From Methanobacteriota archaeon (lineage in GTDB: Archaea > Halobacteriota > Methanosarcinia > Methanosarcinales > Methanosarcinaceae), in contig JAENYU010000013.1 of the NCBI GenBank assembly GCA_016841625.1, positions 65,333 through 104,434 of the forward strand: DNA of 39,102 bases, read 5' to 3'. Each line of letters begins with the position of its first letter. Within the stretch, counting starts at the first letter, position 1. Both the position numbers and the translations under genes were made by a program. Of this stretch, positions 2,146 to 25,758 are shown piece by piece. The notes below the pieces were generated by a model that did not search any database, was not told where the DNA came from, and was given only the letters and a program-made list of their open reading frames with translations.

Positions 2146-2527
2146 GCTAAGTAGCGAAAAGAGGTTGATCGGAGTCAGATCGAAGCAGCCCGTCTACCTA
2201 AAAAATATATTTTTACAGAATTGGGATCGAAAGGGAAAACGTGCTACTGAAATTAGAGAAACACCCCACGCAAAAAGTCGTATTGATTATCTAAAAGCAG
2301 CCCCGAGGGAAAACGATCGACGGGATTGAGGGAGGGGGAAAATGAGCGGGCTGGGAACTGCTTATTTTCTCTTCAAAAGCTCTCGGGTTTTCGATCTATC
2401 AATATCTAGACAGGTGGTTTCGGGAGAGATTGAAGTGAACCACCTACAGAAAAAATATATTTTAAATTATATGGATTTAGAAAAACACTCCACTGTAATT
2501 CAAAAAAGCCCCTCAGGCCAATACAGT
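2146..2527 (+). repeat. Interspersed repeat family, copies 1 and 2 (tandem)
   Basis: Two consecutive copies of the island repeat. The core is a GATTGAAG-like block followed by a variable 6-10 nt and AAAAAATATATTTT; it occurs at about 2177-2218 and again at 2427-2465, roughly 245 bp apart. Between them lie the other family blocks: CACCCCACGCAAAAAGTCG, TATTGATTATCTAAAAGCAG, GGGGGAAAATGAGCGG and TTTTCGATC. In copy 2 an 8-bp stem brackets the core (AGGTGGTT 2412-2419 with AACCACCT 2438-2445). Small open frames here (2126-2329, 2342-2605) are produced by the repeat and are not called as genes. Confidence 0.85.
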
Positions 2528-2656
2528 TGCGAAAGCTTTATTTTTTATCAGCAAAAATTATCAGCAAAAAGTGAGAGCATTTGCTTAAAACAACAACTGC
2601 TTTAAGTTTATAAGCTAAAACAATAAGTATATAATGGATTAAGTTTCATACTGTTT

Positions 2657-2722
2657 AACAGGTAAAGCCAATAAGGCAGTGTACCTTGAGGTGCACGACA
2701 AAGAGTCCTTATTGGTGCTGTT
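2657..2722. ncRNA. Candidate structured RNA (nested stem-loop)
   Basis: Three nested stems are visible: AACAG (2657-2661) with CTGTT (2718-2722), CCAATAAGG (2668-2676) with CCTTATTGG (2707-2715), and GTGTACC (2679-2685) with GGTGCAC (2690-2696) closing a TTGA tetraloop. The asymmetric internal loop is CA on the left and GACAAAGAGT on the right. Twenty-one pairs with one G-U are unlikely by chance in 66 nt. On the + strand the structure is followed by CTCTTTTTT (2729-2737), a good terminator tail that overlaps the DUF3800 stop codon. It could be a small RNA on +, the 3' end of the DUF3800 transcript on -, or a mobile-element end. No known RNA family is recognised. Confidence 0.45.
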
Positions 2723-2735
2723 GAATACCTCTTTT

Positions 2736-3350
2736 TTAGTCCCAAACGAGATACACCTCTTTTTTCACTTCAAGTACATCTATAAATTCACCGCTTCCAT
2801 GCTCGACTTTTTGAAACTTCGACCACGCTAAAACATCTGCAAACTGCAGACCATTCCAGGCATGGGAGTAACTATGATGTATCTCAATTTTCCTTAAGTT
2901 AGAATTCTCATTAATTTTCCTTTCAAAATACTGGTTAAAGTCATCTCTTAGCATTTGTTTACCTTTGGATTTATCTATCCTCACTAAAAGATCTACATCT
3001 TGTAATATAATGTGTTCTGCCAGTTTGCCAGCAACATAATTGTAAAGCTTATGCTTGTCATTTTGTAGGTAGTTACTATAGAGCTTACTTTTTTCCAAAA
3101 TGATATAACATACTCTTGTTTCAGGAATAACGTTGAGTTGATTAAGCATATACTTGACGATATCTGGGCTAGATTTATTTGCTTTAATCTCCTGTACTTT
3201 TTTTAGTTTTTTCTTGAATTTGTTTCTTCTCATATTCTTTATGATACGATCTAACGGAGCAGGATCCTTCACGATCAAAGCTGCAATCACGAAATGATTA
3301 GATTGCTGACCCAAATCTCCACTTTCGTCGATGAACATATGATACTGCAC
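2736..3350 (-). CDS. DUF3800 domain protein
   Basis: The product carries the DUF3800 hallmark F-I-D-E-S-G-D-L-G near its N terminus, a conserved acidic patch, and the C-terminal Q-F-A-D-V-L-A-W-S motif. DUF3800 is thought to adopt an RNase H-like fold with acidic active-site residues and is frequent in mobile and defence regions; its reaction is unknown. I prefer the GTG at 3350, giving 204 residues starting Q-Y-H-M-F-I-D-E, because family members begin four to six residues before the motif. An open frame continues to a TTG at 3452 and an ATG at 3338 is also possible. It stands alone between repeat copies, with the structured element at 2657-2722 just past its stop. Confidence 0.75.
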   Translation of the reverse strand: MQYHMFIDESGDLGQQSNHFVIAALIVKDPAPLDRIIKNMRRNKFKKKLKKVQEIKANKSSPDIVKYMLNQLNVIPETRVCYIILEKSKLYSNYLQNDKHKLYNYVAGKLAEHIILQDVDLLVRIDKSKGKQMLRDDFNQYFERKINENSNLRKIEIHHSYSHAWNGLQFADVLAWSKFQKVEHGSGEFIDVLEVKKEVYLVWD

Positions 3351-3640
3351 GTTTTCACGGTCTCTATCTTTCGATTTTTTTAAGTTTAAGCTTGTAATAG
3401 CAATATTTCTAATCTTCGACCACCAGGATTTGTCCCATTGATGTCGAAACAAACGTTTTTCCTTTTTGTTCCCAGTACATATAACATGCTGGGGCTTAAT
3501 AATGCTTTTTCATTTCATATCTGAATACAACCTATATCTCTTTGTTATCAATTCAGGTAAACATTGCAATGAGTCCATTGAGATCGTTTTTCTGAAATTT
3601 ACACATTAAGAACTAAAAATTATGATCGAAGGTGGAAAGA

Positions 3641-3722
3641 ATTTCGATCGCTAAAAGCTGGACAAGCGGATTCCTGGGACCAGATTGAAGTGTCCGCCGA
3701 CAGAAAAAATATATTTTAATTG
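3641..3722 (+). repeat. Interspersed repeat family, copy 3 (short)
   Basis: This copy keeps only the 5' block TTTCGATCGCTAAAAG, the GCGGA...GATTGAAG...TCCGC segment and CAGAAAAAATATATTTTAAT. GCGGA (3666-3670) can pair with TCCGC (3693-3697). It fills the gap between the helicase 3' end (3813) and the DUF3800 start. The remaining intergenic bases from 3351 to 3640 are AT-rich and show no gene I can support; they include an open stretch continuous with the DUF3800 frame. Confidence 0.8.
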
Positions 3723-3812
3723 AATTTAAAGTTTGATGGTTTTTTCACTGAAAAATTCCGAGAAGCTTGGAATAAATGTCAAACTATTATGAACTGCCAC
3801 CATTGATTTGCA

Positions 3813-6464
3813 TCACTCCAGTTCACAAATAGTAACTTTGTTTTCAATCTCGTCTAGGAATTTACTAACCGAATCTTTTTGGGTATAAATAATCAAGTCA
3901 CTCATAGCCCTCGTCACACCAACATAAAAAAGCCTTCTTTCTTCCTGGTATCGATCTTTTTTACTTGAGCGAGTTGCTGGTTCAAAAATATCGGGATTTT
4001 CTAATTCACAGGGGAAACCGTACAGGCCTTCCACCACATTCAGCAAAAAAACAACTTTTGCCTGCAAGCCTTTGCTTCTGTGAACCGTCATGAAAGGTAC
4101 TTTATTCGGGTTTTTACTTCCATCGAAGGAAATAGGAACGTTCATTTTTTCGGCGTATTCCCTTAATTGATTCTGCATCATTATATTTTTTCCAATCCTG
4201 GATAGAAGTAAAATGTCTTTTGCCTCATAACCTTCATCAAGATAAGACCTTATTAAATCGACACAGTGTTTGCTAATTTGGGAATAGTACCTGTATGAGG
4301 CCCTTTGACCATAATCTGAGATGTAAACCCTGATAGGACGTTCATCATTATTTTTAGCAAAAGTATCTTTTTCGATCTGGGAACCTTTATTGTATACTAT
4401 AATTTCAGCACCAGTATCCACTATAGACTTACAACTTCTATAATTTATAGAAAGGTCAGTCCTGGCCGGATGATCGAAGTACTTATGGAAGTCAACAAAA
4501 AAATCAAGGTTAGATCCTGAAAAACCCATTATGCTCTGCCAATCGTCGCCCACGCAAAACAACTTACACGCTTCGTTTTTCTTCATAAGTTCACTTATAA
4601 GTTCATATCTTTGAGCACTTATGTCCTGGTATTCATCAATCAAAATCTGGTCAAAAGAATCTTTGTATAATTCCTGGTTTTCTTTTAGTTCTTTTACAGC
4701 AAGATTGATCATATCAGAAAAATCAATTTTGTTTTCATTTCTTAATTCATTTTCATAAGTTTCATAAATATCTAAAGCGATGCTGGAAAACTTTTTTTGT
4801 TTTGCAGACCATCTCCCGTCTAACAGCCTTTGCTCAATATTTTTTGGGGACAGGTTATACGTTTTAGCAATTGTCATGAATCGGCTAATATTGAAAGAAA
4901 GACCTTTGACAGATTCTTTGCATTCAGCACTCAATCTATTAACAAGTTGTTCGTACGGAGCAGGGGTGAACTCAAAATCTTTATCAGGATACTTTGCTTT
5001 TAAAGCATTTGTCATCTTTTCGGTCAAAGATTCCTCAAAATCAGTTCCTTTGAATTCGTAATGCCTGGTTTCAACAAGAGCATACTTCTCCTGCTGCGAA
5101 AACTTCTCAATTTTTTTCTCCATCCCTTCTCTGTATTCTTCCGATGCATTTTCACCCTCAAACCAATCCGGCACATTGCCGTCTCTGTCTATTCCCCAAT
5201 GTTCAAGGTAGATGTCGTAATCAGGAAAGAAAAAATCAGGCATTGGAACTTTTTTATCGCCGTTTGCATCGGTATAAGCCATCCACTCCGCAGGATTTTC
5301 GTAAAATATCCTGAGCCTTTCTCCGTTTAAGTTGTGACTCAGAAAAAAGTTCAGTATACCCTTTTCAGCCTCACTTTTGACCTTAGTACCATCAAGGGAC
5401 GTATACGTTAGACCCTTCATGTATTTGTAAAATTCTTCTTTTTCTTCAAAATCATCTTTACTCTTAACTATCTCATAGTCATGGTAACGTTTCATGTAAT
5501 CTATAATTTTCTTCTGGAAATTCCCGTCCGTTTTTTTAAGATTGAATAGGGAATTAATATGGCTGGAGAATTCTTTTTCAAAATTGTAGCCAGAAAATTT
5601 TAATTCGGGGGTCTCTTTACCTGAGTTTTTGCAACCGTCTTCAAGAATTTTCTTCCCTAATGAATGAAAAGTCCTGACTTCTATGGCATCAATCCCAAAC
5701 CTTTCACCAAGTCTCTTCTTAACTTCTCCAGCCGCTTTATTCTGAAACGCAAGAATAAGTATCTTTTTAGAATCAACCCCATCAGGGGCTCTTTCCGTGA
5801 GGTAAGCAGCTCTAGTAATCAGGACTTCGGTTTTTCCAGAACCAGCACCTGCTACAACTAAATTATGTGTATCATCAATTACTATGGATCTTTTTTGTGA
5901 ATCGTCCAGAGGAAAGGGAGACTTCTGAAACAAAGAGTCGTATTTATGGATTCTTTCCTGTATGAAATCCTCATTGTCATATGCCTTAAGATCATTTAAT
6001 AAGCAGGTTAATTGCTCCACTGACTTTCCAATAAAGTCTTTCGAAGGCTCGTCCAAAATTTTACTTTTATGTGTATAAATAGAACAGGTGTCTAAACAAC
6101 TCTTGCAGGCATTGATTAATTTTTCCTTCTCATGATAAGTTAAGTAAGTCTCCCTTCCTATTTTGTACGATTCATATCTTTTGCCCAAGTCTAAAACAGT
6201 TTTTTCAATATTTTCTTTTGCTTCTTCACTTATGCTTTCCTTCTGTGATCTCAAAATTTTATATATATAGCTCGAATAACCTGCAAGATAATCTTTTTTA
6301 AGAATAACAAGCGAAAGTAAAAATAAAATTAAAAGTGGAATGACAAATTCAGGAAGAACAATTGCAGCTAGAAAAAATAAAAGCAACATATGCTTTAGTT
6401 TGAGCCTTGAATCACTATTATTTGCCTCATCTAGAGTTATCCCAACACCTTCTGAAAACTTCAA
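3813..6464 (-). CDS. Membrane-anchored UvrD/Rep-like SF1 helicase with nuclease-like insert
   Basis: The 883-residue protein has all SF1A motifs: Q motif near 190, Walker A A-G-A-G-S-G-K-T at 205-212, R-T-F-H-S-L-G near 264, Walker B I-D-E-Y-Q-D near 609, V-G-D-D-W-Q-S-I near 638, N-Y-R-S near 674, T-V-H-R-S-K-G-L near 793 and F-Y-V-G-V-T-R-A near 846. Two hydrophobic helices at about 25-55 should anchor it in the membrane. Between the motif Ia and II regions, residues about 409-470 contain P-D-F-F-F-P-D-Y-D-I-Y-L-E-H-W-G and a later V-E-T, reminiscent of a PD-(D/E)XK-type insert (inference). It resembles helicase IV-like proteins. Translation appears to begin at TTG 6464 without a clear SD; ATG 6389 is an alternative. 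It unwinds DNA with ATP; the cellular role is unknown. Confidence 0.85.
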   Translation of the reverse strand: MKFSEGVGITLDEANNSDSRLKLKHMLLLFFLAAIVLPEFVIPLLILFLLSLVILKKDYLAGYSSYIYKILRSQKESISEEAKENIEKTVLDLGKRYESYKIGRETYLTYHEKEKLINACKSCLDTCSIYTHKSKILDEPSKDFIGKSVEQLTCLLNDLKAYDNEDFIQERIHKYDSLFQKSPFPLDDSQKRSIVIDDTHNLVVAGAGSGKTEVLITRAAYLTERAPDGVDSKKILILAFQNKAAGEVKKRLGERFGIDAIEVRTFHSLGKKILEDGCKNSGKETPELKFSGYNFEKEFSSHINSLFNLKKTDGNFQKKIIDYMKRYHDYEIVKSKDDFEEKEEFYKYMKGLTYTSLDGTKVKSEAEKGILNFFLSHNLNGERLRIFYENPAEWMAYTDANGDKKVPMPDFFFPDYDIYLEHWGIDRDGNVPDWFEGENASEEYREGMEKKIEKFSQQEKYALVETRHYEFKGTDFEESLTEKMTNALKAKYPDKDFEFTPAPYEQLVNRLSAECKESVKGLSFNISRFMTIAKTYNLSPKNIEQRLLDGRWSAKQKKFSSIALDIYETYENELRNENKIDFSDMINLAVKELKENQELYKDSFDQILIDEYQDISAQRYELISELMKKNEACKLFCVGDDWQSIMGFSGSNLDFFVDFHKYFDHPARTDLSINYRSCKSIVDTGAEIIVYNKGSQIEKDTFAKNNDERPIRVYISDYGQRASYRYYSQISKHCVDLIRSYLDEGYEAKDILLLSRIGKNIMMQNQLREYAEKMNVPISFDGSKNPNKVPFMTVHRSKGLQAKVVFLLNVVEGLYGFPCELENPDIFEPATRSSKKDRYQEERRLFYVGVTRAMSDLIIYTQKDSVSKFLDEIENKVTICELE

Positions 6465-6651
6465 AGTAATTATATTGAGAATGTGATACAGTTACTACAC
6501 AAACAACGTATAAAAAATATAGGTAAACTGGAAAATAGAATTTATTTAATTGGCATTCAAATATGTAAGACAGAGTATAAGAGAACAATGAATTATGCAC
6601 TTAAGGAAGGTTGAGAAAATTGTGAAAGAGCATTTGTTTTAGGCATTATGT

Positions 6652-6975
6652 ACCGAATAGCTCAAATTCGGGCAAGCGGATGGGGGGTTCAGATCGAAGC
6701 AGCCCGCCTACAGAAAAAATATATTTTAATTTATATGGGTTTGAGAGGACAAACGTACCACGGTAATTCTAAAAAACACCCCACGCAAAAGGTCGTATTG
6801 ATTTTCTAAAAGCAGCTCCGAAGGAGTCGAAAAAGGAGAGGGGGGAAAATGAGCGGGGTGGGAACTGCTGCTTCTTAGCTGTACGTTGCCGGGGTTTTCG
6901 ATCGCTCAAATTCGGACATGCGGATTCTGGGGGTCGATTGAAGTGACCTCTGACAGAAAAAATATATTTTTACAG
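6652..6975 (+). repeat. Interspersed repeat family, copies 4 and 5 (tandem)
   Basis: Two core blocks (about 6691-6730 and 6936-6972) about 245 bp apart flank a full internal segment: CACCCCACGCAAAAGGTCG, TATTGATTTTCTAAAAGCAG, GGGGGAAAATGAGCGGGG, GGGAACTGCTGCTTCTTAGC and TTTTCGATCGCTCAAATTCG. The right copy ends within 10 bp of the hicB stop codon at 6985, so the gene end is joined directly to repeat sequence. The rest of the gap, 6465-6651, is the AT-rich helicase upstream region with a possible TATA box on the minus strand near 6510. Confidence 0.85.
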
Positions 6976-6984
6976 ATATGGGAT

Positions 6985-7227
6985 TTACACAGCTTCTGAA
7001 CTGGTAGAGGGTTTTTCAGCAATAGCCACATACTCGGCAAAGGATTCCGATTCCGGAATTGGCAAATTGTCTTCCAGCAGTCCCTGCACATGCATTTCAA
7101 TAGCCTCATGGATATTTTTCTCTACCTCGTCCCGGGTGGAGCCGGTAGCTACACAGCCTGGAAGGTCAGGGGAATATGCCGAATAATTGTTATTTGCTTT
7201 TTCGATCACAACAAGGAAACGGTACAT
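6985..7227 (-). CDS. hicB: HicB-family antitoxin (type 1)
   Basis: The 80-residue product begins M-Y-R-F-L-V-V-I-E-K and has the HicB/UPF0150 pattern Y-S-A-Y-S-P-D-L-P-G-C-V-A-T-G-S-T-R-D-E-V-E-K-N-I-H-E-A-I. HicB folds as a partial RNase H-like domain that covers the HicA active site; short members like this lack a separate DNA-binding domain. The ATG at 7227 is chosen because GGAGG lies 8 nt upstream inside the end of hicA; the TTG two codons earlier has no such site. Only 2 bp separate the hicA stop from this start, so translation is coupled. This HicB type is the usual partner of the preceding HicA. A 90+% identical copy without toxin is at 9975-10217. Confidence 0.88.
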   Translation of the reverse strand: MYRFLVVIEKANNNYSAYSPDLPGCVATGSTRDEVEKNIHEAIEMHVQGLLEDNLPIPESESFAEYVAIAEKPSTSSEAV

Positions 7228-7229
7228 GA

Positions 7230-7424
7230 TCAATCCTCCATTTTCAACTGAGCTTGCTTTAATATGCTGTTCAACGTCCCTGGTGCAAGATCATCTCGAC
7301 TATGACCTGCGATTGTTACCCTGCCTGGTTTGGTCGGGTGCTTATACTGTCGGTGACTACCTCTCGTAGCGACCAGATACCAGCCATCGGCTTCGAGGAG
7401 TTTTATAACCTCACGCACTTTCAT
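7230..7424 (-). CDS. hicA: HicA-family mRNA interferase toxin
   Basis: The 64-residue product M-K-V-R-E-V-I-K-L-L-E... contains the HicA double-stranded RNA-binding fold pattern with the catalytic-histidine motif G-S-H-R-Q-Y-K-H-P and the C-terminal G-T-L-N-S-I-L-K-Q-A. HicA toxins cut mRNA when free of HicB. The ATG at 7424 has GGTGG 4 nt upstream. It overlaps the end of the upstream hicB-type gene (7411-7674) by 14 bp and is followed 2 bp later by the second hicB, so one toxin is framed by two different antitoxin types in a single transcript. Confidence 0.88.
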   Translation of the reverse strand: MKVREVIKLLEADGWYLVATRGSHRQYKHPTKPGRVTIAGHSRDDLAPGTLNSILKQAQLKMED

Positions 7425-7674
7425 TTTCCACCACGATGTTTCCCGGTTCTTTGATAACATGCTCTCCGATCCGGGGCAGAAGTAGTCCATTCCTCAACCT
7501 GAAAATAATCCATTCATCGATGACTTCTTCCAGATTCCTGCGGCATTCCTCCAGGGTCATTCCGGTAGCCCATAAGCCCTCGAAACCAGGCACTTCTCCA
7601 TAATAGGGTTTTTCATCATCAATTATTTCGTATCCAGCTTTTTCAAGGGCTGCCTGGATATACTGGATAAGCAT
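7411..7674 (-). CDS. hicB: HicB-family antitoxin (type 2)
   Basis: The 87-residue product begins M-L-I-Q-Y-I-Q-A-A-L-E-K-A and carries the type with Y-Y-G-E-V-P-G-F-E-G-L-W-A-T-G, then L-E-E-C-R-R-N-L-E-E-V-I-D-E-W. It is a close paralogue of 9519-9770, where the same antitoxin type precedes a different HicA (G-G-K-H-P-F-M type). Its C terminus is altered relative to that paralogue, ending V-V-E-N-E-S-A because the sequence runs into the hicA start region. SD AGGTG lies 5 nt before the ATG. It is the first gene of the hicB-hicA-hicB operon. Whether it binds the adjacent HicA or is a leftover of an exchange is open. Confidence 0.85.
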   Translation of the reverse strand: MLIQYIQAALEKAGYEIIDDEKPYYGEVPGFEGLWATGMTLEECRRNLEEVIDEWIIFRLRNGLLLPRIGEHVIKEPGNIVVENESA

Positions 7675-7733
7675 GATTACACCTGTCCGAAAATGGTATA
7701 TCTAGTTTTATTATGTTTAAATCTTATATAGAT
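7675..7733 (-). promoter_or_regulatory. Promoter and SD of hicB-hicA-hicB operon
   Basis: On the minus strand a TATA-like TATATAAG (7723-7730) lies about 50 nt before the ATG, placing transcription start near 7700 with a leader of about 25 nt containing AGGTG. The same promoter block is conserved at 9771-9830 before the second hicB-hicA pair. Confidence 0.55.
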
Positions 7734-7789
7734 TCTGTGGAGAAGAAAAATAAAGTTTTTTAATTGTCGATTTTTCAGGTTTCTTAGAA

Positions 7790-8272
7790 GGGATTCGGGG
7801 ATGATTGAAGCTGTTCGTCAACTGAAAAAATATATTTTACAGAATTGGGGTCGGGAAAGCCCTCAATAATTCAGGAAAACACCCCACGCAAAAGGTCGTA
7901 TTGATTATCTAAAAGCAGCCCCGAAGGAAAGAGATCGACTGGTTCAGGCTAGCAGGTTAAGAAAAAGTATCAGTCCGCTTGAGCGAAGCGGAACTCGGGT
8001 GGAACTGCTGCTTCTTAGCTGACGTTGCCGGGCTTTTCGATCGCTCAAATTCGGACAGGCGGATGCGGGGGGAGGGTCAAATTGAAGCAGCCCGCCGACA
8101 GAAAAAATATATTTTAATTGATTTGGGGTCGGAAAAGCTCTCAATGATTGAGGAAAACCACCCCACGTCAAAAAAGATATTGATTATCTAAAAGCAGCCC
8201 CGAAGGAAAACGGTCGAGGAGATCAGGTTGCCAAGTTGAGAAAAATTATCAGTCCGCTTGAGCGAAGCGAAA
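7790..8272 (+). repeat. Interspersed repeat family, copies 6 and 7
   Basis: Core blocks occur at about 7803-7842 and 8078-8117, about 270 bp apart, with the complete internal segment between. A TCCGCTT/AAGCGGA hairpin (7974-7980 with 7986-7992) and a related one at 8251-8275 add structure not found in copies 1-5. GGCGG/CCGCC can pair around the second core. Together with 8273-8514 this makes about 840 bp without a gene; the open frames at 7944-8171 and 7979-8191 are repeat-derived. Confidence 0.85.
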
Positions 8273-8360
8273 CGGACCTCGTGCTGTTGCACTTGCAGTG
8301 CAACTCCCAGTAAATCTTCGATTTACTGTGATCCCGAAGCGAAACTCGGGAAGCGAAACT
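8273..8360 (+). repeat. 88-bp triple-hairpin block, copy 1
   Basis: Three consecutive perfect hairpins: GTTGCACT/AGTGCAAC (8286-8304), AGTAAATC/GATTTACT (8309-8327) and CCCGA/TCGGG (8333-8350). The block recurs at 9066-9153 with one base difference. It sits within the repeat family just downstream of the first zinc mini-protein gene. The remaining bases 8361-8479 are AT-rich 3' flank conserved among the three mini-protein modules. Confidence 0.8.
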
Positions 8361-8479
8361 CGGGGAGGGCAAAACTGAGCGAGCTTACGAAATTCGATTC
8401 CTCAAGCTGCAAAAGATAACGTGTTAAGAAAAAAGTATATTCCGGATCTACGGGAGATTCAAAAAAGTGGAAAAGAAAT

Positions 8480-8516
8480 AAGTGTTGGTGTAAACTCAGT
8501 TACACAAATGACACTT
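8480..8516 (-). terminator. Hairpin terminator of zinc mini-protein gene 1
   Basis: Read on the minus strand, AAGTGT...ACACTT encloses GTGTAA...TTACAC, followed by a T-rich TTATTTCTTTTCC tail. The outer stem starts inside the TAA stop codon. The same structure follows the other two copies (13475-13511, 15566-15602), with changes that keep the stems. Confidence 0.7.
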
Positions 8517-8694
8517 AGTATCTGCTGTTATCTCTGGGTGTCCTGTGGTTAGGAAGACACTCTCTGCAGTAAACCGGTCTTTCGGGGTCAGGTTTGAAAG
8601 GTACTTCGGTTTCAACACCGCAATCTGAACAGGTTGCCTTGTGCATTTCTCTGGGTGCGCCGAAATTATTTCCTCTGGATCTGTCGTTAAACAT
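8515..8694 (-). CDS. CxxC-x17-CxxC zinc-ribbon mini-protein, copy 1
   Basis: The 59-residue product begins M-F-N-D-R-S-R-G-N-N-F-G-A-P-R-E and has C-S-D-C, 17 residues, then C-R-E-C, ending N-S-R-Y. This is the CxxC-x17-CxxC domain known mainly from Methanosarcina-type archaea; four cysteines should bind one zinc ion. The function is unknown; the basic, Arg-rich ends suggest nucleic-acid binding (inference). The ATG at 8694 has AGGTGA 8 nt upstream. Longer open frames overlapping it lack the Cys pattern and are shadows. Copies at 13510-13692 and 15601-15783 are over 90% identical. It has its own long leader and terminator hairpin. Confidence 0.85.
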   Translation of the reverse strand: MFNDRSRGNNFGAPREMHKATCSDCGVETEVPFKPDPERPVYCRECLPNHRTPRDNSRY

Positions 8695-8853
8695 TTTTGT
8701 TTCACCTTGGTTTTAGTTGTTAGTTAATAGTTTAAAAATAAGAGTGTATAGAACTCTTTGATTAAAAACAAAAATTGGTTTTTAACAACAGATTATTATA
8801 CGTCTCTTGATTTTCAACACACATACATTGCACTTAAAATATATAAATATATC
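8695..8853 (-). promoter_or_regulatory. Promoter and long conserved leader of mini-protein gene 1
   Basis: A strong AT-rich TATA region (TTTATATATTTTAAG on the minus strand, about 8834-8848) lies about 140 nt before the ATG, implying a leader of about 115 nt. In the leader TTAAAAAC (8762-8769) pairs with GTTTTTAA (8778-8785). The leader and stem are conserved in all three copies although noncoding, which suggests post-transcriptional control. Confidence 0.5.
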
Positions 8854-8989
8854 TATAATTGCGGGAGTACACTCTCTCAAATGAGAGAACTCTTTCCAGG
8901 CATGACTTGAATAGGAGATAACAACCCATTTTCTGACATGTCCTGAAACCAGAATTGCTTGAAAAACCTACCAATATAATTTAAAAATA

Positions 8990-9275
8990 GCCACCCCTCA
9001 CCAAAAATATATTGCTTATCTAAAAACAGCCCCGACGGGAATCGATGAGGTCGAGAGGATCAGAACGGACCTCGTGCTGTTGCACTTGCAGTGCAACTCC
9101 CAGTAAATCTTCGATTTACTGTGATCCCGAAGCGAAACTCGGGAAGCGAAGCTCGGGTGGAACCGCTGCTTCTTACCTGACGTTGCCGGGGGTTTCGATC
9201 GCTCGGATTCGGACAGGCGGATGCGGGGGAAGATTGAAGTGACCACCAACCGAAAAAATATATTTAGACTTAAGT
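8990..9275 (+). repeat. Interspersed repeat copy 8, with triple-hairpin block copy 2
   Basis: It contains TATTGCTTATCTAAAAACAG, the 88-bp triple-hairpin block at 9066-9153, CCGCTGCTTCTTACCTGACG, TTTCGATCGCTCGGATTCGG and the core GATTGAAGTGACC...AAAAAATATATTT. It ends about 35 bp from the hicA stop at 9308. The stretch from 8854 to 8989 is upstream flank shared by the mini-protein modules. Confidence 0.85.
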
Positions 9276-9307
9276 TGAAATAAATAGAACCGAATTTTTC
9301 AGGAATC

Positions 9308-9526
9308 CTATTCTCCAAGCCACTCTTCCCTTGAGATTCGGGCTTGTTTAAGAATTCGGGTCAGAAGATCAACCCCAATTATGCCTTTGTGTGGATTGGG
9401 AATCGTCAAAACAAGATCTCCTTTTCTCATAAAAGGGTGCTTCCCGCCTGAATATGGTCCTTCGAAGCCCAGTTCCTGCAGCCTTTTTACGAGAAAACGC
9501 CAATCCACAGGAACCAATTTAGACAA
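9308..9526 (-). CDS. hicA: HicA-family toxin (G-G-K-H-P-F type)
   Basis: The 72-residue product begins S-K-L-V-P-V-D-W-R-F-L-V-K-R-L-Q-E-L-G-F and has the HicA/YcfA pattern G-P-Y-S-G-G-K-H-P-F-M with the conserved His, then T-I-P-N-P-H-K-G and L-L-T-R-I-L-K-Q-A. It is clearly a different HicA lineage from 7230-7424. A TTG start at 9526 is proposed: it overlaps the end of the upstream hicB by 8 bp and has GGGGGA about 8 nt before it. Toxin role is inferred from family: ribosome-independent mRNA cleavage, neutralised by the HicB encoded just upstream. Confidence 0.82.
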   Translation of the reverse strand: MSKLVPVDWRFLVKRLQELGFEGPYSGGKHPFMRKGDLVLTIPNPHKGIIGVDLLTRILKQARISREEWLGE

Positions 9527-9770
9527 CCGCAATATCCCCCGGTTCTTTGATCGTATAGTCACCGATCTGAGGCAGGGGCAGTCCATTTCTCAACCTGATA
9601 ATGATCCATTCATCAATAACTTCTTCCAGGTTTCTACGGCATTCTTCAAGGGTCTTGCCGGTAGCCCAAACGCCTTCAAGCTCGGGAACCTCTCCGTAAT
9701 AGGGTTCTTCGTCATCGATTATTTCATATTTTGCTTTTTCAAGGGCTGCCTGGATATACTGGATAAGCAT
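9519..9770 (-). CDS. hicB: HicB-family antitoxin (type 2), paralogue
   Basis: The 83-residue product is a near copy of 7411-7674, with Y-Y-G-E-V-P-E-L-E-G-V-W-A-T-G and L-E-E-C-R-R-N-L-E-E-V-I-D-E-W. Here it is followed by the G-G-K-H-P-F HicA type, the usual partner of this antitoxin type, so this pair looks like the intact ancestral arrangement. The ATG has AGGTG 5 nt upstream, and the promoter region matches that of the first locus. Overlap with the toxin start implies translational coupling. Confidence 0.85.
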   Translation of the reverse strand: MLIQYIQAALEKAKYEIIDDEEPYYGEVPELEGVWATGKTLEECRRNLEEVIDEWIIIRLRNGLPLPQIGDYTIKEPGDIAVV

Positions 9771-9828
9771 GATTACACCTGTCCGAAATGGTATATCTAG
9801 TTTTATGCTGTTTAAATCTTATATAGAT
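9771..9828 (-). promoter_or_regulatory. Promoter and SD of hicB-hicA pair
   Basis: A TATA-like TATATAAG (9818-9825, minus strand) and AGGTG before the ATG repeat the layout of 7675-7733. The conserved block extends to about 9945, showing that the promoter was duplicated with the gene. Confidence 0.5.
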
Positions 9829-9887
9829 TCTGTGGATAAGGGAATTAAAGTTTTTTAGTTGTAGATTTTTCATGTTTTTTGGAAAGG

Positions 9888-9945
9888 ATTCGGGAATGAT
9901 TAAAGCAGTCCACCAACCGAAAAATATGTTTTTAAAGAATTGAAA
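9888..9945 (+). repeat. Interspersed repeat family, copy 9 (core only)
   Basis: GGATTCGGGAATGATTAAAG, then CCACCAACCGAAAAATATG, matching the core of the other copies. It lies 30 bp past the stop of the solitary hicB and corresponds in position to the core at 7790-7842 upstream of the first locus. Confidence 0.7.
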
Positions 9946-9974
9946 AGGGTAAGGTTTTGAATTAGAAACATAAC

Positions 9975-10217
9975 TTACACAGTTTCCGAACCTGTAGAGG
10001 GTTTTTCAGCAATAGTCACATACTCGGCAAAGGATTCAGATTCAGGAATGGGTAAGTTATCCTCCAGCAGTCCCTGAACGTTCATCTCAATAGCCTCATG
10101 GATATTTTTCTCTACCTCGTCCCGGGTGGAGCCGGTAGCTACACAGCCTGGAAGGTCAGGGGAATATGCTGAATAATTGTTGTTTGCTTTTTCAATCACA
10201 ACAAGGAAACGGTACAT
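9975..10217 (-). CDS. hicB: HicB-family antitoxin (type 1), orphan
   Basis: The 80-residue product differs from 6985-7227 by only a few residues (for example M-N-V-Q for M-H-V-Q). No hicA precedes it. The bases just upstream still match the region around the hicA stop and hicB SD of the first locus (C-T-G-G-A-G-A-A-T-T-G-A before the ATG), which may be the remnant of a lost toxin or simply the conserved ribosome binding site. An RHH antitoxin-like gene ends 74 bp upstream on the same strand. It could act as a spare antitoxin against HicA 7230-7424. Confidence 0.85.
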   Translation of the reverse strand: MYRFLVVIEKANNNYSAYSPDLPGCVATGSTRDEVEKNIHEAIEMNVQGLLEDNLPIPESESFAEYVTIAEKPSTGSETV

Positions 10218-10291
10218 GTTCAATTCTCCAGTTGGGTAAAAATATGGGTGAATGATGATATTGTATAATTATCGACAGATTGAGATTTCGA

Positions 10292-10603
10292 TCAACGGAA
10301 CTGTTCCCAGTACCGAGCTGCTCTGACGTAGCTTTCCCAAATTATGAAATCATCCCATTCTTCGAAATCCTCTTCACCTGTTCTCGAATGGATCCTTTTT
10401 TCAAAAGCAGAAAAGTCCATACCGTATTTCTGTTCCATTTCCGCTATCATTTTTCCGTAGTAATCTATTTTTTGTTCAGCCTGGTCATGCACAAGACGTT
10501 TCAAGGCCTCCTGCTCATCTTTATACAGGCCTGCTTTCACCATATCACTAATGGGTTCAAAGATTTTTCTGGGGATTTTTACATATTCGATAGCATCGCC
10601 CAA
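10292..10603 (-). CDS. RHH-type antitoxin-like protein
   Basis: The 103-residue product has an N-terminal ribbon-helix-helix-like stretch (E-Y-V-K-I-P-R-K-I-F-E-P-I-S-D-M-V followed by Y-K-D-E-Q-E-A-L-K-R-L-V) and an acidic C-terminal part with E-E-D-F-E-E-W-D-D-F-I-I-W-E-S-Y. This layout is seen in antitoxins: DNA-binding N terminus, toxin-masking acidic C terminus. The proposed start is the TTG at 10603, which has AGGTGG 5 nt upstream; a GTG at 10612 overlaps that site. No toxin gene adjoins it, so it is either an orphan or works with a distant partner. Family assignment is tentative. Confidence 0.65.
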   Translation of the reverse strand: MGDAIEYVKIPRKIFEPISDMVKAGLYKDEQEALKRLVHDQAEQKIDYYGKMIAEMEQKYGMDFSAFEKRIHSRTGEEDFEEWDDFIIWESYVRAARYWEQFR

Positions 10604-10734
10604 TAGTACCACCTAATTACCAATTTGGCTCTCCAACCTTAAATGTATTTGTATACTCCCTGTGCTTCTCTTTTCCACCCAATTTTGTGGGAGGATAGGT
10701 ACTTGCGAAGAGGATTAAGGGCTAAATTTATAGA

Positions 10735-10850
10735 GATACAGACAACAAAAAAATATATTTCTACAGAAATGGGTCGAGTGGAAAAACGTACCACTGTAAT
10801 TCGAAAAATACCCTACACAAAAAAATCGTATTGATCATCTAAAAAAACAT
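10735..10850 (+). repeat. Interspersed repeat family, copy 10 (degenerate)
   Basis: CAACAAAAAAATATATTTCT, AAAACGTACCACTGTAATTC and TCGTATTGATCATCTAAAAA match consecutive blocks of the family. The open frame at 10643-10834 is made by this repeat. From 10850 to 11182 there is the hairpin at 10887 and AT-rich sequence with no gene I can support. Confidence 0.75.
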
Positions 10851-10886
10851 TCGTTAACTTGCTTATTTTAGATAGCCGGGGCGCCC

Positions 10887-22680: not shown

Positions 22681-23979
22681 ATGCGTATTGTACAGGTACT
22701 CATTCCGGAAGGGAAGCGAGAGCCAGTACTGGCCGTGCTTGATGACGAGCAGATCGACTATGCGGTGTGGGATGAAACGGGGAGAGGGGAGTTCGAGGCC
22801 CTGGTCCAGTTCCCCATACCTCCGATCGGCGTCGAGCCGGTGATGGCCAGGCTGCGTGAAGCGGGAATCAGCGAGAATACATACACGATCGTACTGTCAC
22901 CCGAGACGGTTGTTTCCGCACGTTTAGAAGCGTTGAAAAAACGTTATTCCGGACTTCGCATTTCCCGGGAAGAACTCATCGCACGTGCGGAGGATCTCGC
23001 ACCCGCGACTTCTACTTTTGTTGCTTTTCTTGTTCTAAGCACTGTTATCGCTACGGCAGGGCTGCTGCTTGATTCTGCTGCAACAATCATAGGGGCGATG
23101 GTCGTTGCCCCGCTCATGGGCCCGGCAATCTCCGCCAGCGTCGGGACTGTCGTCGATGAACGGGAACTCGCCGCCCGCGGGGTTAGACTGCAGGTAATCG
23201 GGCTACTGCTGGCAATAGCGGTCGCTGCCGTGATAGGTACAATCATGAAGGGAACGCTGCTTTTGCCGCCAGGACTCGATATCCGCGAAGTAGGCCAGAT
23301 TGCCGAGCGTACCACCCCGAACTTCCTGTCCCTCTTCCTTGCGCTGGGATCGGGGCTTGCCGGCGGCATAAGCATTATGCGGGGCTCCGGGTCTACCCTT
23401 GTGGGGGTGGCAATTGCCGTAGCCCTTGTCCCCCCGGCAGCAACAGCGGGGCTCGGGCTTGCCTGGGGACTCTACGACGTGGCGGTAGAAGCGGCCGTGC
23501 TGGTGCTCGTAAACCTGCTTGCTATCAACATATCGGCCCTCATCCTGTTCTGGATTTCGGGCTTTCGCCCTGCTGAAAAAAAGGCTGTTGGTCGTGCCCG
23601 CGCCGCGGTGATCTCACGCGCAGCAGTCCTCGCTATTTCAATCGCCTTCCTCTCCATAGTTCTCGCTCTTGTCACCTACACCTCCTTCCAGGCCGCTCTG
23701 GTTGAACAGGAGGTTAACCAGGAACTGGAGGAAATGTTCAAGGAACCCGAGTATGCAGAAGCAGAGTTTATACTGGGAGAAAGCATAGAAGTCAATTATG
23801 GGCCCTCAGACTTCCTGTTAGGTGAACCGGTAGAGGTGACTTTTTTATTGGGGTATCAAGCCGGGCAAGAAATTCCCCCGGATATTGGCAGGGTAGCTGA
23901 CGACCGACTGAAAGAGGCTACTGGCAAAGAAGTTAAGATCACTGTCGGCTTCATTGTGGCTCAGCAAATCACCGATTAA
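22681..23979 (+). CDS. DUF389/TIGR00341 family membrane protein, copy 1
   Basis: The 432-residue product has an N-terminal soluble domain of about 80 residues (M-R-I-V-Q-V-L-I-P...), then the DUF389 core with A-P-A-T-S-T-F, S-A-A-T-I-I-G-A-M-V-V-A-P-L-M-G-P and G-I-S-I-M-R-G-S-G-S-T-L-V-G-V-A-I-A-V-A-L-V-P-P, spread over about six to seven membrane helices (112-345), and a C-terminal soluble domain. Function is unknown; family members are widespread in haloarchaea and bacteria. The GC-rich codon choice and general resemblance to haloarchaeal members suggest acquisition (inference). The gene is repeated in tandem at 24460, about 80% identical. Confidence 0.88.
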   Translation: MRIVQVLIPEGKREPVLAVLDDEQIDYAVWDETGRGEFEALVQFPIPPIGVEPVMARLREAGISENTYTIVLSPETVVSARLEALKKRYSGLRISREELIARAEDLAPATSTFVAFLVLSTVIATAGLLLDSAATIIGAMVVAPLMGPAISASVGTVVDERELAARGVRLQVIGLLLAIAVAAVIGTIMKGTLLLPPGLDIREVGQIAERTTPNFLSLFLALGSGLAGGISIMRGSGSTLVGVAIAVALVPPAATAGLGLAWGLYDVAVEAAVLVLVNLLAINISALILFWISGFRPAEKKAVGRARAAVISRAAVLAISIAFLSIVLALVTYTSFQAALVEQEVNQELEEMFKEPEYAEAEFILGESIEVNYGPSDFLLGEPVEVTFLLGYQAGQEIPPDIGRVADDRLKEATGKEVKITVGFIVAQQITD

Positions 23980-24459: not shown

Positions 24460-25758
24460 ATGCGTGTTGTACAGGTACTCATTCCGGTAGGGAAGCGAGA
24501 GCCAGTTCTGGCTGTGCTTGATGACGAGAAGATTGACTATGCGGTGTGGGATGAAACAGGGAGAGGGGAGTTCGAGGCTCTTGTCCAGTTTGCCATTCCC
24601 CCGATCGGTGTCGAGCCGGTGATGGCCAGGCTGCGTGAATCGGGAATCGGCGAGAATACATACACGATCGTACTGTCACCCGAGACGGTTGTTTCCCAAC
24701 ATCTCGGAGCATTGAAGGAACGTTATTCCGGACTTCGCATTTCCCGGGAAGAACTCATTGCACGTGCGGAAGATCTTGCACCCGCGACTTCCACTTTTAC
24801 TGCTTTCCTTGTTCTAAGCACTATTATCGCTACGGGAGGGCTGCTGCTAGACTCTGCCGCAACAATCATAGGGGCAATGGTTGTAGCCCCGCTCATGGGA
24901 CCGGCAATCTCCGCAAGCGTAGGGACTGTTGTCAATGACCGAGAACTTGTTTCCCGTGGGGTAAAGCTACAGGTGGGAGGGCTACTGCTTGCAATCGCGG
25001 TTGCTGCCTTTATAGGTGCAATCATGAAGGGAACGCTACTTTTGCCGCCAGGACTCGATATCCGTGAAATAGGCCAGGTTGCCGAGCGCATAAGCCCTAA
25101 CTTCCTGTCCCTTTTCCTGGCGCTAGGCTCAGGGCTTGCCGGCAGCATCAGCATTATGCGGGGTTCCGGGTCAACCCTTGTGGGAGTAGCAATTGCAGTG
25201 GCTCTTATCCCCCCTGCAGCAACATCAGGGCTCGGACTTGCCTGGGGATTTTACGGAATGGCGATAACAGCGGCTGTACTGGTGCTCGTGAACCTGCTCA
25301 CCATCAACGTATCTGCCCTCATCATGTTCTGGCTTTCAGGCTTTCGTCCTGCTGAGGAAGGGGACGTTGGTCGTGCCCGCTCCGCGGTGATCTCGCGTGC
25401 GGCAGTTCTCGGCGTTGCGATTGCCTTTCTCTCCATAGTTCTCGCTCTTGTCACTTACGCCTCCTTCCAGACCGCTCTGGTTGAACAGCAGGTTGAACAG
25501 GAGTTGAAGGATATGTTTGAGGAACCCGAATATGTAGAAGCGGGGATTATACGGGGTGAAAATATAGAGATCAACTATGAACCTGCAGACCTCCTGTTAG
25601 ATAACCCGGTAAGTGTGGGTTTGTTCGTGGGGTATCAAGCCGGGGACGAAATTCCTCCGGATATTGCCCAAATAGCTGACGAACGCCTGAAAAAGGCCAC
25701 TGGCAAAGACGTTGAAGTCACTGTCGGTTTTGTCGTGGCTCAGCAGACCGCCGCCTAA
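24460..25758 (+). CDS. DUF389/TIGR00341 family membrane protein, copy 2
   Basis: It is the same length (432 residues) and domain order as copy 1, with identical core motifs in the membrane region. Differences gather in the C-terminal soluble domain (for example L-L-D-N-P-V-S-V-G-L-F-V-G against F-L-L-G-E-P-V-E-V-T-F-L-L-G), which suggests that this part has diverged in ligand or partner. Both copies are intact. Both could be made from near-identical promoters and might form mixed complexes (inference). Function unknown. Confidence 0.88.
   Translation: MRVVQVLIPVGKREPVLAVLDDEKIDYAVWDETGRGEFEALVQFAIPPIGVEPVMARLRESGIGENTYTIVLSPETVVSQHLGALKERYSGLRISREELIARAEDLAPATSTFTAFLVLSTIIATGGLLLDSAATIIGAMVVAPLMGPAISASVGTVVNDRELVSRGVKLQVGGLLLAIAVAAFIGAIMKGTLLLPPGLDIREIGQVAERISPNFLSLFLALGSGLAGSISIMRGSGSTLVGVAIAVALIPPAATSGLGLAWGFYGMAITAAVLVLVNLLTINVSALIMFWLSGFRPAEEGDVGRARSAVISRAAVLGVAIAFLSIVLALVTYASFQTALVEQQVEQELKDMFEEPEYVEAGIIRGENIEINYEPADLLLDNPVSVGLFVGYQAGDEIPPDIAQIADERLKKATGKDVEVTVGFVVAQQTAA

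Follow-up and report, generated by a model that had tools for sequence, protein, structure and literature searches.

A predicted PD-(D/E)XK nuclease domain in the 1B region of a DNA helicase IV-family protein from Methanosarcina

Introduction

Several enzymes that process DNA resemble the protein described here in one part or another. In RecB, AddAB, AdnAB and DNA2 the nuclease is terminal on the motor and belongs to the RecB subfamily. T7 endonuclease I is a stand-alone dimer with an E-T-K motif, and GajB, from the Gabija system, has no nuclease insert and has GajA as its partner. An SF1 motor and a PD-(D/E)XK nuclease share one chain in RecB, AddAB, AdnAB and Bad/DNA2 (PMC7430649), and HelD of B. 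subtilis, which acts in RNA polymerase recycling, carries a clamp arm at the 1B position (PMC8655204). Known since 1987, DNA helicase IV is still little understood in its function (PMC8655204); the E. coli enzyme has been implicated in the RecF pathway together with RecJ, RecQ and UvrD (PMC2806897).

Here we describe a gene from a window of 39,102 nucleotides (the whole stretch of DNA that was analysed; all positions refer to it). The window comes from a Methanosarcina genome with Methanosarcina sp. KYL-1 and M. spelaei as close relatives. A sequence-only reading of this DNA had proposed a membrane-anchored SF1 helicase with a possible PD-(D/E)XK insert, suited to defence against incoming DNA.

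Gene and helicase motor

The helicase-nuclease gene occupies positions 3813..6464 on the minus strand and is an intact open reading frame encoding 883 aa from a TTG start. Orthologues were found at 85–90% identity in two other genomes and at 87% in KYL-1, and they share the start: of four other Methanosarcina loci, three keep the TTG and one has ATG instead. Inspection of the sequence upstream of the TTG showed no Shine-Dalgarno site, in agreement with the earlier reading of translation from TTG without such a site. About 50 nt upstream of the TTG, at 6509..6517 (minus strand), inspection revealed an element that is similar in the orthologues and that, judged against the consensus, may be an archaeal TATA-like box. 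The dN/dS ratio was 0.14–0.22 over the nuclease insert and 0.04–0.14 over the helicase parts; such purifying selection over the insert argues that the frame is not a chance reading, and the two ranges together that the protein is made and selected.

The protein matched the Pfam domains PF00580 (1e-47) and PF13361 (1e-19), and all the SF1A motifs, I to VI, were present, so that the UvrD-type motifs are intact as first read. In particular, we identified motif I (Walker A), GAGSGKT, at residues 206–212 (5829..5849, minus strand), TFHS at 265–268, motif II (Walker B), DEYQD, at 610–614 (4623..4637, minus strand), GDDWQSI at 639–645, NYRS, VHRSKGLQ and EERRLFYVGVTRA; motifs V and VI fall at residues 794–853 (3906..4085, minus strand). 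The best named family for the whole protein was DNA helicase IV (NF008276, E 1e-83), of which it fails the curated cut-off (281.7 vs 543 bits), and the Pfam scan gave no match to PF12462, the helicase IV N-terminal domain. Motifs IV and V are only about 118 residues apart on inspection of the sequence, which indicates that the protein, like helicase IV, has no UvrD-type 2B domain. In a tree of the helicase core the protein clustered with helicase IV and apart from the UvrD-type rows, that is, in a broader helicase IV clade. The motor can thus be described as an SF1A helicase without a 2B domain that would unwind DNA in the 3'-5' direction, driven by ATP.

A predicted nuclease domain in the 1B region

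Between motif Ib and motif II, in the 1B region, the protein carries an insert of about 155 residues (about 345–500; 4965..5432, minus strand). This insert is absent from E. coli HelD (helicase IV) and present in the full-length relatives that were picked by whole-protein similarity and aligned, which comprise archaeal and bacterial plasmid proteins, proteins of archaeal genomes, and proteins of proviral or plasmid-like contigs in IMG/VR. The insert with P-D-F and Y-L-E-H-W-G that had been noticed before does exist, but its size had been put too low, at 60–70 residues.

S364, E367, I370, Y388, E389, P409, D410, F411, E421 and Y444 were invariant in 18 aligned relatives, and in a second set (n=33, mostly viral contigs) E367, Y388, E389, P409, D410, F411, E421, Y444 and K451 were invariant, together with the helicase motifs. 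Among the 55 insert-bearing rows of the tree, which were recognised by P-D-F so that this motif is no independent count, E367, D410 and E421 were present in all 55 and K451 in 50. The predicted active site begins with E367 in helix alpha-1 (5364..5366) and includes D410 of the P-D-F motif (5235..5237) and E421 of the E-H-W motif (5202..5204; all minus strand); the latter two had been singled out from the sequence beforehand, and both proved invariant. A third motif of that reading, V-E-T, has no place in the active site, since it varies among the relatives and belongs to a later strand. No tree row had the domain with broken acids: the domain was either complete or absent.

The E-H-W motif corresponds to the E-x-K of the superfamily minus its Lys, and in the insert family the Lys position of (D/E)-x-K is occupied by W, F, Y or L. 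Since certain PD-(D/E)XK families have a displaced lysine, the missing Lys does not exclude membership of the superfamily. A likely substitute is K451, a Lys in a helix (5112..5114, minus strand). The position held Ala in the remaining five of the 55 rows, four haloarchaeal and one from Hymenobacter (L026, L027, L028, L127 and L132), in which W-K-R is replaced by W-A-R with an Arg adjoining the Ala. Judging from the alignment, this adjacent Arg may stand in for K451 in that group, and the W-A-R proteins are a natural experiment on which of the basic residues is important.

The fold of the insert was predicted with AlphaFold. The whole-protein prediction, which used 33 sequences, reached a pLDDT of 84.8, with about 80–95 for the insert, and the insert predicted alone reached a pLDDT of 94.2 and a pTM of 0.88, with the order alpha-beta-beta-beta-alpha-beta. 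In the whole-protein model E367 lies in a helix at 365–375, D410 just before a strand at 411–413, E421 in a strand at 418–423, and Y444 and K451 in a helix at 440–456, followed by a strand at 462–467 and a helix at 476–491. Run against the PDB sequences, an insert profile matched T7 endonuclease I and nothing else (E 0.03 from the first alignment and 5e-4 from the second); E20, D55, E65 and K67 of that enzyme, whose roles in it we take as given, align to E367, D410, E421 and W423 of the insert, respectively. The PDB fold search with the insert gave no match under E 0.001, and its weak matches were mostly nucleases of the same fold (R2 retrotransposon endonuclease, RecE, AbaSI and Vsr). In a viral fold library 19 matches passed 0.001, and the nuclease-named ones were endonuclease I, VSR, homing and restriction enzymes. 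The Pfam scan of the single insert sequence gave no match, which indicates that profiles are needed; PF05367 (T7 endonuclease I) matched 5 of the 18 members weakly, with a best E of 0.001 and the scores shown being below the Pfam cut-off, and two PADLOC models named PD-DEXK or PDC-S69 matched 16–17 of the 18 inserts.

Taken together, the fold, profile and PADLOC matches make the assignment of the predicted domain to the PD-(D/E)XK superfamily firm. The insert suspected at the outset thus has a nuclease-like predicted fold and three invariant acids, where an unrelated fold with unconserved acids would have spoken against it. The domain would catalyse metal-dependent cleavage of DNA.

Weaker relatives of the nuclease domain were also found in or beside other SF1 helicases (AAA_11/AAA_12, Upf1-like) of Halobacteriota genomes (L139, L141 and L142), which suggests that helicases may have acquired the domain on more than one occasion. 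Two small proteins (L138:1138-1833 and L140:1486-1941) combine Cys-rich N-terminal motifs with an insert-like domain after them, and by appearance they look like PADLOC HEAT_CxxC_PDDEXK candidates.

N-terminal hydrophobic segment

The strongest hydrophobic stretch of the protein is one run of 30 residues at 26–55 (6300..6389, minus strand; Kyte-Doolittle 2.68), broken by P37-E38, which could form a membrane anchor as one helix or a short hairpin. The two membrane helices read earlier from the sequence correspond to this single run, and two helices (19–36 and 38–72) appeared only in the AlphaFold model of the N-terminus, at low confidence (pLDDT 31–64). A hydrophobic segment of 18–30 residues lies at the same place in most of the Methanosarcinales clade, although the surrounding sequence differs; in the relatives it is a single segment of 18–20 residues. 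Across the insert-bearing proteins, a segment with a Kyte-Doolittle value of at least 1.9 was present in 22 of 55, on several separate branches, and the other 33 are without it; beyond residue 200, no stretch of any of the 55 exceeded 1.7. The N-terminus of other family members holds PF12462 or no recognised domain. The proposed anchor is, at the level of sequence, a real and recurrent feature, and it lies outside the core definition of the family.

Genomic setting and distribution

Genes of the HicA/HicB type adjoin the helicase-nuclease gene in the window, and the toxin-antitoxin island that had been suggested as its setting is real in this respect, but HicAB is not a conserved partner. From one Methanosarcina to another the neighbours vary, and the variation is greater in other archaea, in which mostly metabolic genes surround it. 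Plasmid copies of the gene stand alone: their neighbours include some defence-like genes (a DUF262 pair, AbiE, Lit, a restriction endonuclease), many transposases and some genes for repair (umuD, ssb, UvrX). No conserved operon partner was found in Methanosarcinales or on plasmids, the gene being alone in every annotated context, and there was no GajA-like gene beside it in the window.

A full-strength match was found in 15 of 295 Halobacteriota genomes, and in two of the four genomes of the genus. The family is often located on plasmids or in provirus-like contigs, and the plasmid DNA search gave no near match. PADLOC assigned the defence labels Gabija, DRT and NERD-UvrD, which we rejected because the matches come from the generic helicase core; it returned generic helicase (UvrD) matches only, with no specific full-length match and no known defence partner gene.

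The window has further features of its own. The HicB/HicA-type genes form an odd multi-copy toxin-antitoxin cluster, being duplicated at 6985-7243 and 9975-10233 and at 7430-7692 and 9526-9788 (DNA 92% and 83% identical, respectively). Positions 2175-10858 contain several short scattered repeat families, mostly 49–119 nt long and 60–90% alike, which are intergenic and flank the helicase gene and the HicAB genes on either side; one copy used as a probe found eight genomic places, seven of them in this region. As borders of a mobile element these repeats were rejected, since they are scattered through the toxin-antitoxin region and not paired around the gene. Elsewhere, a HEAT-repeat-like frame (12-1235) and a DUF429 frame (1099-2091) share about 137 bases of the same strand, read in different frames, an overlap that points to a misplaced start of the second or to shortening of the first, and two highly alike tandem paralogous genes (22681-23979 and 24460-25758) encode a membrane protein of 432 residues.

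Proposed function

We consider it quite probable that the gene product is a helicase-nuclease in one chain that belongs to the DNA helicase IV family, with the following mechanism and an accessory role, as drawn from the sequence comparisons and the predicted model. A gap, fork or end would offer the motor single-stranded DNA to load on, and from there it would move 3'-5' by means of ATP. The nuclease, placed in the 1B arm beside the incoming duplex, would make metal-dependent cuts at or near the junction, with E367, D410, E421 and probably K451 as the cutting residues. In Methanosarcina, the N-terminal anchor would hold the enzyme at the membrane, where foreign DNA enters. The role would be the accessory processing of foreign or aberrantly branched DNA, and the patchy spread of the family together with its frequent occurrence on plasmids and in provirus-like contigs points to such a role.

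The role itself can be divided further. The sequence-only reading favoured a stand-alone, membrane-fixed nuclease-helicase directed against viruses or plasmids, which we regard as a serious candidate that falls somewhat short of an even chance. The mobile and patchy distribution, the restriction or abortive-infection neighbours in some cases (DUF262, Lit, AbiE, restriction endonuclease) and the anchor in 22 of 55 relatives are in keeping with it; on the other hand, other contexts are metabolic or IS-rich and without a defence gene, what PADLOC matched in the helicase part is generic UvrD, and the gene sits on plasmids that would themselves be targets. Without a conserved partner gene, defence stays unproven. 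A more tentative alternative is that the helicase-nuclease resolves branched DNA in recombination or repair and has no part in defence. Its appeal is that the nearest solved relative of the insert, T7 endonuclease I, resolves junctions, that umuD, ssb and UvrX are repair genes found among the neighbours, and that E. coli helicase IV has been implicated in the RecF pathway with RecJ, RecQ and UvrD (PMC2806897), but a gene found in 15 of 295 Halobacteriota genomes and two of four in its genus, often on plasmids or in proviruses, is unlike core repair genes. Overall, we would assign somewhat less than half of the weight to defence, roughly a third to recombination or repair, and about a fifth to plasmid upkeep.

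The 1B region is a duplex-binding arm in UvrD-type helicases, and an insert that keeps the nuclease fold could likewise only bind DNA, for instance by gripping the duplex ahead of the helicase; the W, F, Y or L at the canonical Lys position and the Ala at K451 in five relatives would agree with this. We find it improbable, because archaeal and bacterial members alike keep the three acids unchanged, a constraint that mere binding would not impose, and no member among the 55 rows has the fold with degenerate acids.

Origin of DNA helicase IV

The tree of the helicase core was built with the insert and the N-terminus left out. A C. homopropionicum locus (L003) had been dropped from the analysis as an AddA-like protein, and a partial one (L004) was left aside. 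E. coli helicase IV fell inside the nuclease-bearing rows, and this nesting was kept after adding the helicase IV of Proteus, Klebsiella and three Vibrio, and six further UvrD-type rows. Forcing the nuclease-bearing rows into one clade was rejected, with an AU p of 1e-4 for the first tree, to which the test was post hoc, and of 3e-4 for the enlarged one. The helicase IV branch is long in this tree; the E. coli core is 44% identical to that of a nuclease-bearing Vibrio plasmid protein and about 25–29% to the UvrD-type rows. PF12462, which from its name we take to be a mark of helicase IV, was found in nuclease-bearing proteins of Methylotuvimicrobium and Pseudomonas plasmids.

Such nesting within the nuclease-bearing family (AU p 3e-4) suggests that helicase IV probably lost the nuclease; the simplest reading of the sequences is that the nuclease is probably old in the family. 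That the insert was instead gained more than once, with no single loss in helicase IV, is unlikely in our view: without a root the tree costs two changes either way, and support is low on some deep branches, but the insert aligned at one site with identical invariant residues in all lineages, and helicase IV lies several supported nodes inside the insert-bearing rows, with the UvrD-type rows as outgroup.

To a broader proposal, built on the loss of the nuclease from helicase IV, we give about even weight: that these proteins form an unnamed, widespread bacterial and archaeal family with an endonuclease I/VSR-like domain with a displaced Lys in the 1B arm, which would cut branched or invading DNA, in many lineages from the membrane, and of which E. 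coli helicase IV would be a nuclease-less descendant. If the ancestors of helicase IV were helicase-nucleases, its role becomes testable by comparison with the nuclease-bearing relatives.

Comparison with known systems

No match in Pfam, NCBIfam or PADLOC describes a helicase with a nuclease in its 1B region, and no description of this architecture was found in a literature search that covered few of the subscription journals. The annotated records examined label the relatives only 'UvrD-helicase domain-containing protein', and the putative nuclease of many plasmids and archaea goes unseen in consequence.

The closest named family is represented by E. coli DNA helicase IV (HelD), which has, as the window protein does, an SF1A core without 2B, and whose PF12462 domain is common to some nuclease-bearing relatives; it is without the nuclease insert, whereas the window protein is without PF12462 and has a hydrophobic anchor instead. 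HelD of B. subtilis has a related SF1 core and also carries an unrelated module at the 1B position, but it has no nuclease, acts on RNA polymerase and matched the window protein more weakly (E 3e-14). GajB of Gabija shares the UvrD-type core; it works with GajA and is without the nuclease insert that the window protein has.

On the nuclease side, T7 endonuclease I (PF05367) shows the same order of motifs as the insert (S..E, Y-E, P-D-F, ..E). It is a stand-alone dimer with E-T-K, whereas the insert has E-H-W with a helix Lys and lies inside a helicase. The Vsr/DUF559-type endonucleases match in fold and, like the insert, are small PD-(D/E)XK domains, but they stand alone without a helicase.

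Helicase-nucleases are already known, and what sets this one apart is the position of the predicted nuclease in the 1B arm instead of at the motor end. In RecB, AddAB, AdnAB and Bad/DNA2 the nuclease belongs to the RecB subfamily and sits at a terminus of the motor, whereas that of the window protein is T7 endonuclease I/VSR-like and lies within the 1B region. With a layout different from that of RecB, AddA, AdnA and DNA2, the enzyme could cut at the junction itself and not behind the motor.
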